From: a virus
Length of the DNA: 64,000 bases
IMG/VR virus record: IMGVR_UViG_3300033143_002274
Location: 1-64,000 of that record
Strand: one strand, 5' to 3'
Below, in pieces: positions 187 to 12,815 of this stretch. The position numbers and the translations under genes are program-made. Within the stretch, counting starts at the first letter, position 1. Each line of letters starts with the position of its first letter. The notes below the pieces were generated by a model, which saw nothing but the letters and a program-made list of their open reading frames with translations, was not told where the DNA came from and did not search any database.

Positions 187-654
187 TTAAAGATCATTGA
201 ACCTTGTTGATTCTATATAGAACTTATCAATTGATTCATTCTCTTTCTTGTTCTTATTCCATTTCTTTAAAAATTTATAGGCACGTTTCATCCGTATGCG
301 TTCTTCCAATGTCATGTTGATGAATATTGAATGTTCTCTTGCTACATTGTCATCCCTATAACTTTTATCCATTAACTTATTGTGTATGAATGTTACACGT
401 ATATTACCACGCACCATATCAGAAAACATTGTTGTTTCGTTGTAATTAGCTACATCTAATTTCCATTCAATAGGATGTTCATAGGCACTTTCATAAATGA
501 AATTAAACATATCACGTCTGCGTTTGTCTGACGAAAACACCTTACACACACCAGCATCATACAACTGCTTTAATTTAACTACACCCATAATGAGTACCCA
601 CATTATCAATGAGAATATCATCAAAATCCAAAACGCTTTTTGCCCTTCAGTCAT
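187..654 (-). CDS. Hypothetical membrane-anchored protein (155 aa)
   Basis: Residues 8-27 form one hydrophobic helix (FWILMIFSLIMWVLIMGVV), followed by a basic and polar soluble domain rich in Arg and Lys. This predicts a single-pass inner-membrane protein with a cytoplasmic C-terminal domain. Its ATG overlaps the TAA of the RNA ligase gene (TAATG), so the two are translationally coupled. It is the last gene before the terminal tRNA pair. I do not recognise the family. Confidence 0.75.
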   Translation of the reverse strand: MTEGQKAFWILMIFSLIMWVLIMGVVKLKQLYDAGVCKVFSSDKRRRDMFNFIYESAYEHPIEWKLDVANYNETTMFSDMVRGNIRVTFIHNKLMDKSYRDDNVAREHSIFINMTLEERIRMKRAYKFLKKWNKNKKENESIDKFYIESTRFNDL

Positions 655-1646
655 TACAGTCCCACAATACTATCAATATGTTTAAAGTACCATACTCGTG
701 CTTTTTTACCAAGATCCCGACTGATATCTTTTTTGGTTAAACCAGATGCTTCTAACACATCAGATTCTTCTTTCATCACATCAGCGAACACCCAAGACAA
801 AAAAGTACCTGTTTCTTCTTGGGTAATGTTCATGTCCATTTCAACAAGGTAATCAATACCCTGACATAAACGATTGTCAGTTACTACTCTGTCGATAAAC
901 TCTGCAACAGATTTGAGTTTGACCACATCAACTTCCACTAACTTTTTCACTTTGCTAACAGAATGTTTTTCACCTTTCACTTTAAACCAGAAGTCAGATG
1001 ATTCATATCCTTCAGTAGTACATTTCCACACAACACCTTCGCCAATACCATTTTTGTTGAAGTGTTTGCCTACTGGACATTCTGCTTCAACTTCATTAGT
1101 TATAGTAACCAAATCATTAGTATGTAATGCAGGATTACTGAAATCAATTTCCATTTCATACGTTTCAAATGAATTGATGTCATATATACCAAGATGCTTT
1201 AGGTAATTGAAATCAATTACTTCATCCAGTTTAGTATGGTCTTGTCGTACTACAATTTCACCTTCACCATAAGATATGGCGAACACCACAAACATCTTAG
1301 AGAGTTGTGAGAGTGCCACACCTTTTTGTATACCTTCACCACACCACTCACCGTATATTGTTATAGGTGACATAGTATCAACAGGCACACTGACACTAAT
1401 TTGGATTGATAATATATGGTCTTTGATAAATTCAACAAATCCATAATGACCTTTATCAACAATATTATTGCGTGATTGTACCTGATAAGAACCATCACCA
1501 TGTAATACAACAGCCGCATTAGTACCATGAAGTTTCACAGTACCTCTGAAAGCTAACGTGGGGGGCAACTCGTTATGGTACTTTGCTCTGTCATTAACAT
1601 GTTTGCATGTGCTTCTGAACTGTTCGATACTTGGAAACTTTATCAT
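654..1646 (-). CDS. RNA ligase, T4 Rnl2-like family
   Basis: A nucleotidyltransferase that would seal nicked RNA using ATP. Motif I is KLHGTN at residues 38-43, with K38 the predicted AMP-accepting lysine. A motif III-like IYGEWCG lies at 97-103, motif IV EGVVWK at 203-208 and motif V FKVKGEKH at 221-228. The length (330 aa) matches T4 Rnl2 (334 aa). In T4-like phages such ligases repair host-cleaved tRNAs or act in RNA editing-type repair. The nearby tRNAs fit a repair role, but that is inference. It starts 1 nt downstream of the J-domain gene stop in the same operon. Confidence 0.9.
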   Translation of the reverse strand: MIKFPSIEQFRSTCKHVNDRAKYHNELPPTLAFRGTVKLHGTNAAVVLHGDGSYQVQSRNNIVDKGHYGFVEFIKDHILSIQISVSVPVDTMSPITIYGEWCGEGIQKGVALSQLSKMFVVFAISYGEGEIVVRQDHTKLDEVIDFNYLKHLGIYDINSFETYEMEIDFSNPALHTNDLVTITNEVEAECPVGKHFNKNGIGEGVVWKCTTEGYESSDFWFKVKGEKHSVSKVKKLVEVDVVKLKSVAEFIDRVVTDNRLCQGIDYLVEMDMNITQEETGTFLSWVFADVMKEESDVLEASGLTKKDISRDLGKKARVWYFKHIDSIVGL

Positions 1647-3231: not shown

Positions 3232-3555
3232 CTAATTTCTGAAACGTTTATGATATTTACCAATGACCATATTACTGAAGAATCCACTATGGTCAACATT
3301 GATAACGGTTGTAACAACTTCTTTTTTACATATGAACAACATGTTTTCGAATACTTTAAAAACAGGTTTGGTGTCATACCCATATGTCTCGTAACAATGA
3401 GTCATGAATCTGGTGTTGTTATAAATTGAATTACAATCTTTCGATCTATAAAACACTCGTGAGAATGATGCTGCCACATCCCCATTTTCTACCCGACTCT
3501 TAAACCGTTCTTTGAACCTTACAAGAGCATGGTGTGTAAACCTGTGTTTTTGCAT
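3232..3555 (-). CDS. Hypothetical protein (107 aa)
   Basis: A small basic protein beginning HRFTHHALVRFKERF, followed by beta-rich sequence. The H-x6-RF start is seen in small phage proteins of RelE/BrnT-like size, but no catalytic site can be argued. The start is supported by the strong ribosome site AGAAGGAG spaced before ATG. The gene overlaps the end of the HTH gene by 37 nt. Confidence 0.65.
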   Translation of the reverse strand: MQKHRFTHHALVRFKERFKSRVENGDVAASFSRVFYRSKDCNSIYNNTRFMTHCYETYGYDTKPVFKVFENMLFICKKEVVTTVINVDHSGFFSNMVIGKYHKRFRN

Positions 3556-3764
3556 TGCATTCTCCTTCTGGTTATTAAAACTGCTACCTGTAGTCTTGAA
3601 TCTACATTTAACTTTTTCAAAATACGATGTACATGTTTCTGTACTGTTCCAGTGGCGATACCTAATTGTTTTCCTATTGCTATATTTCCCTTACCTTCAC
3701 ATATGATATCACATATTTCATTTTCACGCTTGGTTAAATCTTTTACCAAAACTTCAAATTTCAT
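3519..3764 (-). CDS. LuxR/GerE-type HTH transcription regulator (81 aa)
   Basis: The protein is essentially one HTH domain: LTKRENEICDIICEGKGN followed by the turn and recognition helix GIATGTVQKHVHRILKKL, the standard LuxR C-terminal pattern with Glu in the first helix and TVxxH in the recognition helix. There is no receiver or autoinducer domain. I chose the ATG at 3764, preceded by TAGGAAC, because a longer frame would run into tRNA-Met. It probably regulates phage or host promoters early in infection. Confidence 0.8.
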   Translation of the reverse strand: MKFEVLVKDLTKRENEICDIICEGKGNIAIGKQLGIATGTVQKHVHRILKKLNVDSRLQVAVLITRRRMQCKNTGLHTMLL

Positions 3765-3778
3765 ACTTGTTCCTAAAA

Positions 3779-3855
3779 TGGTGGGTCTGGATGGACTTGA
3801 ACCATCGACCAATGAATTATGAGTTCACTGCTCTGACCATCTGAGCTACAGACCC
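3779..3855 (-). tRNA. tRNA-Met (anticodon CAT)
   Basis: The acceptor GGGTCTG pairs with CAGACCC, then discriminator A and encoded CCA, followed by a T-run. The anticodon stem GTGAA/TTCAT closes the loop CTCATAA, giving CAT. The D-arm is GCTCAGATGGTCAGAGC and the T-arm GATGGTTCAAGTCCATC. It could be elongator Met, or Ile after lysidine modification; sequence alone does not decide. It is embedded between protein genes of the same operon. Confidence 0.9.
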
Positions 3856-4735: not shown

Positions 4736-5029
4736 TTAACAAGTCCAACCGCGTGAATCCATTTCATCAAACTCAGGATCTTTTTTACGGGCTACATTGG
4801 TCACTGCGTCAACCATATCTACCGCTTCATGACCAATATTATATGCTTGATATAACTCCACACCCTTGTCTAATATTTTACGTGCTTCCTTCATATGAAA
4901 CATAGCACTTTTATAGTTGGCTGATTTGTTAGCTTCTTCTCTATCTGTTGTTTCTGTATTAGGCCAGTATTTCTTACCTGTGAATACTGCCCAGTTACCG
5001 TTTGGAAGTTGCTTTGCGTTATATTTCAT
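4736..5029 (-). CDS. Hypothetical protein (97 aa), first gene of an early operon
   Basis: The N-terminal residues LPNGNWAVFTGKKYWPNT form a small beta unit like those in short phage proteins that read out a residue context. The remainder is helical. The start is 23-30 nt downstream of a near-consensus sigma70 promoter and has CAGGGA as ribosome site, so this is probably expressed immediately after infection. Function is unknown. Confidence 0.7.
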   Translation of the reverse strand: MKYNAKQLPNGNWAVFTGKKYWPNTETTDREEANKSANYKSAMFHMKEARKILDKGVELYQAYNIGHEAVDMVDAVTNVARKKDPEFDEMDSRGWTC

Positions 5030-5058
5030 TTTTTTGTTTCCCTGAGTTGATGTAGGGA

Positions 5059-5087
5059 ATTATAGATTGAAAATATGGGGAAGTCAA
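5059..5087 (-). promoter_or_regulatory. Sigma70-type early promoter
   Basis: On the minus strand: TTGACT, a 17-nt spacer ending TTTTCAATC, then TATAAT. This near-consensus host promoter reads into the 4736-5029 gene and the operon down to the RNA ligase. The same spacer end and -10 are found at 23728 and 59972. Confidence 0.85.
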
Positions 5088-5099
5088 GGATTATTTTAG

Positions 5100-5980
5100 A
5101 TTGAAAAGAAAGAAGGTTGAGATTACGCCTTTTATAGTATACCTTTCATCGGATTACCATACATGGGCTACATATATGTTGCCGACTTATCCACAAACGA
5201 CCACATATAGTGCGCCGTTTGTAATATACCGTGATTGCCTTTTTGATGGTGGCGTTTCCATTTACACTCTAAACTACTCTAGCTTCGGACTACCGATTGG
5301 GTATGCCTACCTTCTCGTGCGCTTTCACTAAAATGCTAATCTCTTTGCGGGATCATAGCACCCTTCATTCTTACAAGTAAGTGAAGGTTTAAATCACTTT
5401 CGTTTAAAGCAGGACAACACTTTTGCTTTTGATCGGACTCGAACCGATGACACAAAGATTAAGAGTCTTTTGCTCTACCAACTGAGCTACTATTTTAAGT
5501 TCACGATTATGTGGTTGTCCAATAGCTTCATACTCTTTTGGAGCACAAAATACCAAACATAACCTGTCGTTCGTCTTAGTCAGACTAATAAACCGTACTT
5601 CAAGTGTTTTACCACTATGATACTATGCACCGCGCTTATCCACTATAGACTCGCACTTATGCACTACTGATTAACCGTATTGCTATGTAATATTAGTATG
5701 TAGTGAGTTGGGTACTACCCCAATCTCTGTATATTCGTGTTCCTTCACAACCGAAGTTAAATGAAGCACTTAAACATACAATTCGTTCCACTACTATTAC
5801 GTCAGCCTTTAGCTCCGTATCAATGAAGCACATCCTTTCAGATGCAGGTTTCAGCTTTTATGGATTGACTATCCGAAGATAGCGATAGCTTGTGAGACTA
5901 CCTTTACAGATGTTGCCACCTGCTGTCATTGCCATACCAAGAACCCGCATTATACAGATCGAAAACTGATTGTAAAGTTT
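5100..5980 (-). ncRNA. Large structured non-coding RNA candidate (GOLLD/ROOL-like) with embedded tRNA-like domain
   Basis: About 880 nt without a credible gene, co-directional with and adjoining the tRNA cluster. Perfect inverted repeats are dense: CAAACG/CGTTTG (5194-5221), TCGG/CCGA with a 4-nt loop (5284-5295), CCTTCA/TGAAGG (5362-5387), TTAGT/ACTAA (5576-5588), TTGGG/CCCAA (5708-5723) and CTATC/GATAG around CGAA (5868-5881). Long-range stems include AGAAGGT/ACCTTCT (5111-5117 with 5309-5315) and GGACAAC/GTTGTCC (5412-5418 with 5514-5520), the latter enclosing the tRNA-like domain. Length, phage context, position beside tRNAs and an internal tRNA match what is known of the giant ornate RNAs GOLLD and ROOL. 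The assignment is inference and the ends are approximate. Confidence 0.6.
5425..5496 (-). tRNA. tRNA-Lys-like domain (anticodon CTT) inside the large RNA
   Basis: The D-arm (GCTCAGTTGGTAGAGC), anticodon arm (AAAGA-CTCTTAA-TCTTT, anticodon CTT) and T-arm (ATCGGTTCGAGTCCGAT) are perfect. The acceptor is broken: the 3' strand CAAAAGC would need GCTTTTG, but the 5' strand is AAAATAG, and no CCA is encoded. It therefore cannot form a normal acceptor stem in cis. A flanking 7-bp stem GGACAAC/GTTGTCC encloses it, which suggests it is a structural module of the larger RNA rather than a free tRNA. Confidence 0.7.
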
Positions 5981-6001
5981 TATTTACAATTAATTTAAAA
6001 T

Positions 6002-6084
6002 TGGTACTCAGGGTGGGAGTCGAACCCACAAGGGTCTGGTTTCTAAAACCAGTAGCTGTGCCAATTTACATTAACCACCTGAGC
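6002..6084 (-). tRNA. tRNA-Leu (anticodon TAG), unusual arms
   Basis: The acceptor GCTCAGG pairs with CCTGAGT (one G-T), with A and encoded CCA. The anticodon stem CTGGT/ACCAG encloses TTTAGAA, so TAG reads CUA. The T-arm GTGGGTTCGACTCCCAC is perfect. The variable region is only about 6 nt, while Leu tRNAs normally have a long variable arm. The D-region is expanded instead. Confidence 0.75.
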
Positions 6085-6090
6085 ATAATT

Positions 6091-6178
6091 TGGTGCGAAA
6101 GGGGAGGATCGAACTCCCATGATCATTACAATCGGCAGATTTTAAGTCTGCTGCATATACCAATTTCGCCACAATCGC
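6091..6178 (-). tRNA. tRNA-Leu (anticodon TAA)
   Basis: The anticodon arm GCAGA-CTTAAAA-TCTGC gives TAA. There is a long class II variable arm and the T-arm is GGGAGTTCGATCCTCCC. The acceptor GCGATTG/CTTTCGC has two central T-T mismatches. Encoded CCA follows discriminator A. Confidence 0.8.
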
Positions 6179-6181
6179 ATT

Positions 6182-6274
6182 TGGTGGTTGTGGATGGAAT
6201 CGAACCATCACAGTGTCCAGCACCTGTACAGGATTACAATCTGTCTCCGCTTAACCAATATCGAACTCACAACC
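6182..6274 (-). tRNA. tRNA-Tyr (anticodon GTA)
   Basis: The acceptor GGTTGTG pairs perfectly with CACAACC, then A and encoded CCA. The loop TTGTAAT gives anticodon GTA. A class II variable arm is present, and the T-arm GATGGTTCGATTCCATC is perfect. Confidence 0.85.
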
Positions 6275-6279
6275 TTGTT

Positions 6280-6366
6280 TGGCAGAAAGCAGTGGTATCG
6301 AACCACAACCCTTTCGGATCTAACGACTTAGCAGGTCGCAGCAATCACCATCATGCTTTACTTTCT
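6280..6366 (-). tRNA. tRNA-Ser (anticodon GCT)
   Basis: The acceptor AGAAAGT pairs with GCTTTCT (one T-G), with G73 and encoded CCA. The anticodon arm GCGAC-CTGCTAA-GTCGT gives GCT. A long variable arm and the T-arm GTGGTTCGATACCAC are present. Confidence 0.85.
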
Positions 6367-6371
6367 ATAAT

Positions 6372-6494
6372 TTATTTTGGGATTCCTATCCCCCAGCTTC
6401 TACGACATGCTTTCATAGAATCACGTTTAACATCAGACACCCATTTGAGTGCTTTCTTTCTGGCAAATCTTTTATCACGTTTCATTTTTGTCAT
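6372..6494 (-). CDS. Very small basic protein (40 aa) nested between tRNAs
   Basis: The start at 6494 has a strong ribosome site (GAGGAAAGTGTTATG). The product is highly basic (MTKMKRDKRFARKKALKWVS at the N-terminus) with two Cys-free basic helices and one Cys near residue 32. It ends 5 nt from tRNA-Ser(GCT). It may bind RNA or DNA. No family is recognised. Confidence 0.5.
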   Translation of the reverse strand: MTKMKRDKRFARKKALKWVSDVKRDSMKACRRSWGIGIPK

Positions 6495-6515
6495 AACACT
6501 TTCCTCTATTAAATT

Positions 6516-6599
6516 TGGCAGAAGATAGAGTAATCGAAACCCCAACGTTTCCGTTGCCACAGGGTTCAAACCTGCTTTGCCACCTTGACGGTATCTTCT
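6516..6599 (-). tRNA. tRNA-Ser (anticodon TGA)
   Basis: The acceptor AGAAGAT/ATCTTCT, discriminator G and encoded CCA match the style of the Ser(GCT) gene. The loop TTTGAAC gives anticodon TGA. A long variable arm is present. The T-loop TTCGATT is normal. Confidence 0.8.
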
Positions 6600-6696
6600 T
6601 TAAACGCTAACTAAAAGTTAGCGGTACTTTTTCAGTACTACCACACCTTACAATTGGAGGTGGTGATCCAGTGACTGAGTGAGTCACACACTAAAC
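6600..6696 (-). other. Multi-hairpin spacer between tRNA genes
   Basis: This 97-nt spacer has no gene but several perfect inverted repeats: CGCTAAC/GTTAGCG (6605-6623), GTACT/AGTAC (6624-6638), CACC/GGTG around 6644-6664, and GTGACT/AGTCAC (6671-6687), the last nested in CCAG/CTGG. It could be tRNA-processing structure or a small RNA. Confidence 0.5.
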
Positions 6697-6768
6697 TGGC
6701 ACAAAGTATAGGAGTCGAACCCATCTTTTGAGTCTTGGAGGCTCATAGTTCCCACGAACAACAATGCA
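6697..6768 (-). tRNA. tRNA-Trp-like sequence (anticodon CCA), degenerate
   Basis: The anticodon loop CTCCAAG gives CCA, the T-arm is ATGGGTTCGACTCCTAT, and the 3' acceptor ACTTTGT is followed by G and encoded CCA. The expected 5' acceptor strand ACAAAGT is absent (TGCATTG instead) and the D-loop is only four bases. It is either a pseudo-tRNA or a tRNA-like element. The 5' end is approximate. Confidence 0.5.
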
Positions 6769-6773
6769 CTAAC

Positions 6774-6849
6774 TGGTCAGGGATACACGATTCGAACGTG
6801 TGAAACTCGCGTCCAAGGCGAGGACTTTACCAGACTAAGCTAATCCCTG
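6774..6849 (-). tRNA. tRNA-Pro (anticodon TGG)
   Basis: The acceptor CAGGGAT/ATCCCTG pairs perfectly, with A and encoded CCA. The anticodon arm CTCGC-CTTGGAC-GCGAG gives TGG. The T-arm CACACGTTCGAATCGTGT is intact. Confidence 0.9.
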
Positions 6850-6857
6850 TTAAAACT

Positions 6858-6932
6858 TGGCAGGAGTGGAAGGTATTGATCCCTCTCATGTCGGTTTCAA
6901 AAACCGATGCGTTCCCATTTCGCCACACTCCT
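6858..6932 (-). tRNA. tRNA-Gln (anticodon TTG)
   Basis: The acceptor AGGAGTG/CACTCCT pairs perfectly, with G and encoded CCA. The anticodon arm TCGGT-TTTTGAA-ACCGA gives TTG. The T-loop is ATCAATA rather than TTCGAAT, which is atypical. Confidence 0.8.
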
Positions 6933-6953: not shown

Positions 6954-6988
6954 AAAAAAAGGGTGAGTAAACTTTCGTCTACTCACCC
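6954..6988 (-). terminator. Strong intrinsic terminator
   Basis: On the minus strand the stem GGGTGAGTA/TACTCACCC is followed by seven T residues. It closes the transcript from the late promoter at 7104-7111 and separates the upstream protein genes from the tRNA cluster. Confidence 0.85.
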
Positions 6989-7098
6989 TGATAAAATTCT
7001 TAATGTTAATTTACATTAGCTCACAGGCAAGTAGTCCTCTCCGATAATAACGGATAAGATTGCGACCAACTAAGCTGTAGTGATGTAAATGTTTTCAT
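6954..7098 (-). ncRNA. Candidate late non-coding RNA
   Basis: A late promoter octamer (7104-7111) on the minus strand is followed by about 145 nt without a supported gene and then the intrinsic terminator. The segment is closed by a 10-bp stem with one G-U (7009-7018 with 7081-7090), so it is likely to fold. An ATG sits exactly at the expected start point and opens a 25-codon frame without a ribosome site, so a leaderless peptide cannot be excluded. Confidence 0.45.
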
Positions 7099-11508: not shown

Positions 11509-11907
11509 TTATGTGAAATCCAGAATCTTTTCTAACTCAGTTGATTTAGATTTGATGTCTGCTGACAACTTGCTGATTGATTTGATTTGTTTTTCGGATG
11601 CTTCTTTTGAACTTTTGATTGTTGACATTAACTGGTCACGCTTCTTAACAAGTTTCAATATTGAATCATAAAGTGTACGCTGCTTACCTTTTGCGAATAT
11701 GGTAGCTACTCCACCCATGTACACTCCGTAAAGCGCACCTGATATGATTGCCAGAGGTAATGCTCCTGCTCCACCTATTGCAGTTAATGCAGCGTAAGAT
11801 GTTATGGTTGCACCAATCCCCAATATAGAACCTACTATTTTGAATACTTTGGATCTGGATGCTTCATCAAGTTGTTCTTCATATTCGTTAAGTTGTTGTA
11901 ACTTCAT
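11509..11907 (-). CDS. Hypothetical head-module protein with glycine-rich membrane hairpin (132 aa)
   Basis: The N-terminus MKLQQLNEYEEQLDEA resembles T4 capsid-targeting peptides, with a possible gp21 site QLDE/A near residue 15. Residues 24-70 form a hydrophobic Gly/Ala-rich hairpin, followed by a basic coiled-coil tail. A packaged protein that inserts into the host membrane at DNA ejection is a reasonable inference. No family is recognised. Confidence 0.65.
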   Translation of the reverse strand: MKLQQLNEYEEQLDEASRSKVFKIVGSILGIGATITSYAALTAIGGAGALPLAIISGALYGVYMGGVATIFAKGKQRTLYDSILKLVKKRDQLMSTIKSSKEASEKQIKSISKLSADIKSKSTELEKILDFT

Positions 11908-12204
11908 TTAGAATGCACCATGAAATGCTTTGAATTTGACACCCATACGTTTCTTGGCAAGATTCATCATCTTTTTCATGATGGCAGAACGACCACCCAT
12001 TAATTCCGGTGGCATATGACCTAACTTGTTGTGCTTGCTTATGATAACTTCCATTCTGTTAATCAGATCTTTTACCTGACTGTCATTACCTAACATCTTA
12101 AGACCAGCAAGTATTGAACCATTATGGTCATTGTTATCAGTTAACTGAGCAATCGCCTTAATGTTCTTGTCTATGCTACCTGCTTCTATCTGACTGAGTT
12201 TCAT
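11908..12204 (-). CDS. Hypothetical head-module protein (98 aa)
   Basis: A basic helical protein starting MKLSQIEAGS, again a MKL-type N-terminus with IEA. Its ATG overlaps the gp21 stop by 4 nt. It could be a minor core protein or packaged protein. No motif is recognised. Confidence 0.65.
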   Translation of the reverse strand: MKLSQIEAGSIDKNIKAIAQLTDNNDHNGSILAGLKMLGNDSQVKDLINRMEVIISKHNKLGHMPPELMGGRSAIMKKMMNLAKKRMGVKFKAFHGAF

Positions 12205-12815
12205 TTGAATGATTTTCCGATGAACTTAATCAGTTCTTTCTCGAAAAACTTCTGTGCAGATTTGTCATGTAGTACAGCATCAGATAAATCTTCAATGATG
12301 TATCCGCGTTTGTACATGTCGAGTGCTTCAGTGATACTTTGTGGGTATGCATTAATTGCGCTTGGATTGGCAACGATGTCTACTGTGATGAAGTTAAACC
12401 CTTCAACGATTCCAGTGTCTTCATTAACCTGACCTGATCCACGACTTGATACTCCAAGTTGTACACCTTCTTTGACTAAACCTTTTGCGATTTGACCTTT
12501 GGGAGTACTTTCCATGATTTGTGCTTTACCAATGGCATTGTTACCACTCATTTGCATTTCAAGGATTTTATGAGATACTTCAGACAGACTTACAACTAAG
12601 TCTTGAGGATGGTCTAATTGACCAAGTATATGCCGCCCAGCAGTAGCAGCTTCGTTAACTTGTTTAACTGCTTTTTCTATTTCAGGTTTGGCGTACACTC
12701 TGCCATTACGGTTTTTTTGTTCTGATTCCATAAAGATACCACTGAGGTACATCTTCTTAGATTCAGTGTTTGCTTCACAGATTATTCCGTTAAAATTTTC
12801 TTCTATTAAGATCAT
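12201..12815 (-). CDS. 21: Prohead protease, gp21-like
   Basis: The serine protease that matures the T4-like prohead by cutting after (L/I)xE. The catalytic His lies in QLDHP (H69) and the Ser in GVSSRGSG (residues 121-128). NRNGRVYAKP near residue 35 is typical of the U35-type fold. Its own N-terminus GIICE/AN contains a candidate autocleavage site. It has its own late promoter. Confidence 0.92.
   Translation of the reverse strand: MILIEENFNGIICEANTESKKMYLSGIFMESEQKNRNGRVYAKPEIEKAVKQVNEAATAGRHILGQLDHPQDLVVSLSEVSHKILEMQMSGNNAIGKAQIMESTPKGQIAKGLVKEGVQLGVSSRGSGQVNEDTGIVEGFNFITVDIVANPSAINAYPQSITEALDMYKRGYIIEDLSDAVLHDKSAQKFFEKELIKFIGKSFK

Follow-up and report, generated by a model that had tools for sequence, protein, structure and literature searches.

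A GOLLD RNA almost certainly fills the non-coding gap between a 97-aa open reading frame (4736-5029, minus strand) and a tRNA gene at about 6005 (minus strand) of the window, by which we mean the whole 64,000-nucleotide stretch analysed. Its variable linker carries a tRNA-Lys(CUU)-like core with intact D, anticodon and T arms and without an acceptor stem. We consider it likely that this RNA combines a covarying 5′ domain, a promoter-like site and a clamped acceptorless core that would act as a captive tRNA mimic inside an RNA cage. The novel element, a modest one that we read from sequence comparison, is a pattern at the level of the family: the acceptor appears to have been lost repeatedly while the tRNA core stayed.

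GOLLD identity and extent of the RNA

The minus strand from 5565 to 5114 matches the Rfam GOLLD model RF02032 with 174.3 bits (cmscan, E = 2.9e-47), above the gathering score of 150 bits, and the match is complete over model positions 1-416. The assignment to GOLLD rests on this passage of a curated Rfam threshold over the complete model; none of 14 control genomes gave a GOLLD match. The initial annotation had proposed a new member of GOLLD or ROOL, or a related new class: membership of GOLLD is supported, and a new class is not required. ROOL is likewise a giant phage or prophage RNA that occurs near tRNAs and forms an RNA cage (PMC12286853), but it differs in sequence and secondary structure. 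The ROOL reading was rejected because the window holds no match at the ROOL gathering score; within 5000-6100 there was none up to an E-value of 5. A permissive search of the stretch returned no Rfam family over its cut-off besides GOLLD and tRNA.

Table 1. Features of the GOLLD locus, in window coordinates
Feature	Position	Strand	Basis
GOLLD RNA gene	5100..5948	-	~840 nt; both ends inferred from promoter-like site, 3′-domain Rfam match and homology of 5873-5270 to the nearest relative
Sigma-70-type promoter-like site of the GOLLD gene, TTTACA-16-TATAAT	5949..5976	-	11/12 consensus bases; consensus match only
5′ domain, 384 nt, outside the Rfam model	5565..5948	-	Covariation with the nearest relative
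3′ domain, RF02032 model 1-416	5114..5565	-	174.3 bits, E 2.9e-47
First stem of 3′ domain, 5′ strand GGUUAUGU	5557..5564	-	Pairs with 5512-5505; Rfam structure line and sequence
First stem of 3′ domain, 3′ strand ACAUAAUC	5505..5512	-	Rfam structure line and sequence
Linker clamp helix, 5′ strand GGACAAC	5514..5520	-	7 pairs with 5418-5412
tRNA-Lys(CUU)-like core in linker	5431..5490	-	RF00005, 50.5 bits, model 7-64 of 71
Conserved GOLLD motif AAAAGCAAAAGU	5419..5430	-	Follows the linker in nearly all GOLLDs examined
Linker clamp helix, 3′ strand GUUGUCC	5412..5418	-	Pairs with 5520-5514
Next promoter-like site, TTGACT-17-TATAAT, before the 97-aa ORF	5059..5087	-	11/12 consensus bases

The layout is that of known GOLLD RNAs. 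A 5′ domain, the less conserved of the two, precedes a 3′ domain that matches the complete model, the RNA would measure about 840 nt from the promoter to the end of the match (833 nt in the env-38 GOLLD), and a variable linker of the kind that can hold a tRNA (5504-5431) is followed by AAAAGCAAAAGU and accompanied by the clamp helix. The gene is borne by a phage, and tRNA genes adjoin it. Its sequence is distant from that of its family: identity over the 3′ domain columns is at most 54% to the other full-length GOLLDs examined, as against about 79% to the nearest relative. That relative has TTGACA-16-TATAAT at the place matching the promoter-like site, and the next promoter-like site (5087-5059, minus strand) marks the 3′ side of the GOLLD unit.

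The nearest relative and covariation of the 5′ domain

The only close relative found is IMGVR_UViG_3300033143_001340 (hereafter L136; its GOLLD region is L223), whose GOLLD lies at 11767-12505 and aligns with window positions 5873-5270 at 79% over 622 nt. The L136 contig terminates within the 3′ domain, and ARAGORN called no tRNA in the record. At the DNA level the two records have this RNA in common and nothing else. That two otherwise unlike records share a promoter-like site points to a unit that is either conserved or mobile as such, and this GOLLD RNA may be transferred between phages independently. Two clade-specific motifs led to no relative beyond L136; L415-L418 were rejected as chance matches on inspection, and a GOLLD was found in none of the 15 scored records that share the capsid protein (at most 96% capsid identity; mostly fragments).

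RF02032 models the 3′ domain only. The 5′ domain was assessed by comparison of the window with L136, to which its 384 nt are 73% identical. The consensus fold of the two sequences reaches -96 kcal/mol. Its 111 consensus pairs comprise 70 that are unchanged, 15 with one-sided changes and 26 with double compensatory changes; none is broken. As a neutral control, 200 simulations were run with an equal number of substitutions and folded identically; their means were 78 pairs, 6.9 double changes and -46 kcal/mol, and the best fold reached -60.5 kcal/mol. The 26 double changes with no broken pair thus stand against a neutral maximum of 16, which answers, in a comparison of two sequences, the covariation check that the initial annotation had proposed. 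A profile built from the two 5′ domains and run over the collected GOLLDs matched only the window and L136 (L223).

The Rfam match and the covariation bear out the many stems that the initial annotation had noticed in the gap, with the refinement that everything lies on the minus strand. The stretch folds with an energy of -240.2 kcal/mol, compared with -217.1 ± 7.9 kcal/mol for 20 shuffles (z = -2.9). We set this value aside because it is weaker evidence than covariation: the Rfam hit and the covariation are the stronger evidence for a structure beyond chance.

The linker clamp is a general GOLLD helix

In the 3′ domain, the loop closed by the first stem contains the strand GGACAAC, whose partner GUUGUCC lies downstream of the linker. 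The clamp helix thus crosses the first stem as a pseudoknot at the linker base; it is missing from the nested Rfam structure line. We collected 93 GOLLD sequences, and 87 of them have the clamp with seven perfect pairs, compared with a mean of 20.7 and a maximum of 28 of the 93 when partners were shuffled. Because near-duplicates are frequent among the 93, the number of distinct helices, 34, is the better measure. The 7-bp stem described initially as enclosing a tRNA-like part is therefore real, but it is a general GOLLD helix and not a private lock. Two papers already report tRNAs in GOLLD linkers (PMC12286853, PMC6582537), and with the clamp being general the arrangement is less novel than the initial annotation implied.

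A tRNA-Lys(CUU)-like core without an acceptor stem

The core corresponds to nucleotides 7-66 of a tRNA-Lys(CUU). Its D stem (4/4), anticodon stem (5/5) and T stem (5/5) are fully paired, 14 of 14 pairs in all; U33 is present and the T loop reads TTCGA. The would-be acceptor strands AAAATAG/CAAAAGC form only two of seven pairs, no CCA is encoded at the core, and the restriction of the RF00005 match to model positions 7-64 likewise indicates that the acceptor is absent. Addition of a CCA by an enzyme would depend on the acceptor end that is missing. The description of a tRNA-Lys-like element with perfect arms, an unpaired acceptor and no CCA has thus held on every point. As a candidate functional tRNA the core was rejected, with arms that pass and a 7-bp acceptor stem that fails; ARAGORN did not call it. 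The position of the acceptor 3′ strand is filled by AAAAGCAAAAGU.

The linker core of L136 is built alike, with the anticodon CUU and without an acceptor. Between the window and L136 the anticodon stem changes from AAAGA/TCTTT to ATTGA/TCAAT and the T stem from ATCGG/CCGAT to GTGGG/CCCAC, which amounts to four double compensatory changes with none of the 14 pairs broken. The odds that eight random stem substitutions land as four whole pairs are about 3e-4, complementarity not yet required. Both acceptorless cores meet the linker at the identical nucleotide. Over 58 nt, the window core shares 93% identity with the complete tRNA-Lys(CUU) of Streptomyces phage BillNye, from which it differs in having neither acceptor stem nor CCA; its identity to the L136 core is 80%. 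Being nearer to a free tRNA than to its counterpart in L136, it leaves room for an origin of the compensatory changes in recaptured free tRNAs.

Linker tRNAs across the GOLLD family

Most viral GOLLDs examined have a linker without a tRNA. Where a tRNA is present, its state is graded. A full acceptor with CCA occurs in L441-L443 (GCCA) and L377 (ACCA); five to six acceptor pairs remain in L220, L221, L222, L434, L436-L439, L444, L445, L447, L448, L450 and L451; and the acceptor is absent from L001, L223, L414 and the mycobacteriophages Aziz (L435), MrMagoo (L440) and PegLeg (L449). In Nanosmite (L452) the linker tRNA has been lost, so it is dispensable there. Anticodons vary widely among linkers. 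Arms were assigned by eye in L414, L377, L436-L439, L442, L443, L445, L448, L449 and L451. The mycobacterial and mycobacteriophage linker tRNAs (PMC6582537; Rey, Estes, Aziz, MrMagoo, PegLeg, prophi86-1) resemble the window in that the tRNA stands right before the conserved GCAAAAG motif, and those of Aziz, MrMagoo and PegLeg also in the missing acceptor. They differ in their anticodons, and several, with five to six pairs left in the acceptor, carry a tRNA gene annotation. Scanning bacterial genomes for the linker pattern returned mostly chance matches, with Mycobacterium alsense the sole GOLLD among 15 scored genomes; a loose pattern of a tRNA plus GCAAAAGT likewise gave mostly chance hits among the matches listed.

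These states were mapped onto a 3′-domain tree built without the linker. Presence or absence of a tRNA requires two changes on this tree. In the subset gathered without selection for tRNAs, two changes compare with at least 8 (mean 11) for shuffled labels. The tRNA-bearing linker thus appears to be an inherited trait that is stable on the tree, with deep placements made unsure by the long branches of the window, L377, L445 and L441. With the acceptorless form as an extra state the count rises to five, that is, at least three further state changes; we read these as about three separate acceptor losses, in a count that cannot tell gain from loss. Repeated loss of the acceptor with retention of the core argues against the release of a usable tRNA as the purpose of the insert. 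Together with the long inheritance of linker tRNAs in part of the family, this pattern opens to test whether the form of the tRNA is what counts.

Several of these linkers also appear in genome annotations. A tRNA-Gln, tRNA-Ser, tRNA-Leu or 'tRNA-OTHER' is annotated within an unannotated GOLLD in the mycobacteriophage records L447 (1585-1658), L448 (1565-1638), L450 (1586-1659) and L451 (1565-1636), and these genes may be captive or pseudo-tRNAs. The same caution applies to tRNA genes called within GOLLDs more generally, for example in mycobacteriophages.

A proposed captive tRNA mimic and its alternatives

Cryo-EM resolved the env-38 GOLLD as a 14-mer RNA cage with the linker in the lumen, and the authors of that structure consider it possible that the cage encloses linker tRNAs (PMC12286853). 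By analogy with env-38 (PMC12286853), the window RNA would be produced during infection and some 12-14 copies would close into a hollow cage; given membership of GOLLD, cage formation is very probable. For expression, which in GOLLD rises during phage lysis, the sequence offers the promoter-like site. The window RNA differs in that its linker tRNA has neither acceptor nor CCA. Closure of the cage would turn the linkers, with their tRNA-like cores, towards the lumen (PMC12286853). From what holds for tRNAs in general, a core without acceptor stem and CCA would be unchargeable and a poor RNase P substrate, which would make it something other than a tRNA for translation. It would most likely be a permanently tethered, folded tRNA mimic within the cage, either a structural insert or a bait for tRNA-binding factors. 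Among the few hints at a function of GOLLD cages, for which we know of none, is the lumenal linker with its tRNAs. According to work cited in PMC7567579, the GOLLD of a Lactobacillus brevis prophage is dispensable for phage production. A bolder and rather improbable extension is that one GOLLD lineage keeps its tRNA core for a use free of charging, in which many acceptorless elbows displayed in the lumen would sequester tRNA-binding factors, or sense them, for instance modification enzymes or anticodon nucleases; the tRNA-Lys here would be a case that dropped its acceptor.

We regard the balance as even on whether the core is a selected captive mimic rather than a relic. As a decaying relic, it would descend from a phage tRNA gene that fell into the variable linker, lost an acceptor it did not need and drifts towards loss, with the GOLLD scaffold alone functional. 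This possibility is a serious one, if somewhat less than even: the series that runs from CCA-bearing (L441-L443, L377) through shortened (L222) to acceptorless tRNAs (L435, L440, L449) and on to the loss in Nanosmite would be its expected course, a pseudo-tRNA with undetectable expression is reported within a mycobacterial GOLLD (PMC6582537), and most GOLLDs go without a linker tRNA. It fits poorly with arms that are intact in all 14 pairs in both the window and L136 despite four double compensatory changes, and with retention of the core in its lineage across large divergence. The intact arms, the L136 counterpart and the long inheritance weakly favour the tethered mimic over the relic. Repeated exchange, by which tRNA genes of the neighbouring array would be captured through recombination so that each linker holds a recent tRNA, would explain the widely differing anticodons and the closeness of the window core to a free phage tRNA-Lys. 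We think it doubtful: the window and L136 cores share the junction nucleotide and the anticodon CUU, every capture would have had to come without the acceptor, and tRNA presence tracks the scaffold tree.

Two further readings were rejected. A functional tRNA-Lys cut out of the GOLLD transcript to serve translation could draw on the perfect arms, on complete CCA-bearing tRNAs in some other linkers (L441-L443) and on the 75-kb record, which may be incomplete and in which no second tRNA-Lys was found. The acceptor with two of seven pairs, the missing CCA and the partial Rfam match, all paralleled in L136, make such a releasable tRNA very improbable. That the gap is instead an unannotated protein-coding or unstructured region has a negligible chance. 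Open reading frames of up to 76 aa are present, but they are short and overlapping, and no credible gene was found among them, as the initial annotation had held. The longer ones mostly differ between the window and L136, the alignment of the two contains indels of 1, 2, 3, 6 and 8 nt, and no credible reading frame common to both was found. The Rfam match and the covariation account for the stretch.

Genomic setting

The GOLLD RNA gene is hosted by a T4-like phage. The virus record encodes a Gp23 major capsid protein (PF07068, 281.7 bits), whose closest named relatives come from Alishewanella phages (46% identity) and from large Pseudomonas, Vibrio and Xanthomonas myoviruses, among others. Near the GOLLD gene, tRNAs on the same (minus) strand extend over 6005-6932. 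Two tRNA-like genes there were missed by ARAGORN: one at 6005-6075 (minus strand; 26 bits, just under the Rfam cut-off), read by eye as a Leu tRNA (anticodon UAG) with a long variable arm, and one at 6185-6274 (minus strand; 31.7 bits, over the cut-off), by eye a Tyr with anticodon GUA.

A 330-aa RNA ligase (654-1646, minus strand; PF09414, 53.9 bits) is encoded a few kilobases away from the GOLLD gene and the tRNA island. Phage enzymes of this type can repair tRNAs cleaved by anticodon nucleases. A 97-aa protein at 3519-3812 (minus strand) has a LuxR-family DNA-binding domain (GerE, PF00196, 57.4 bits), and its first codons overlap a tRNA-Met gene (3779-3855). Directly upstream of the Gln and Pro tRNAs, a strong terminator-like hairpin of 13 pairs followed by a T run (6960-6989, minus strand) may form the upstream border of the tRNA/GOLLD block.
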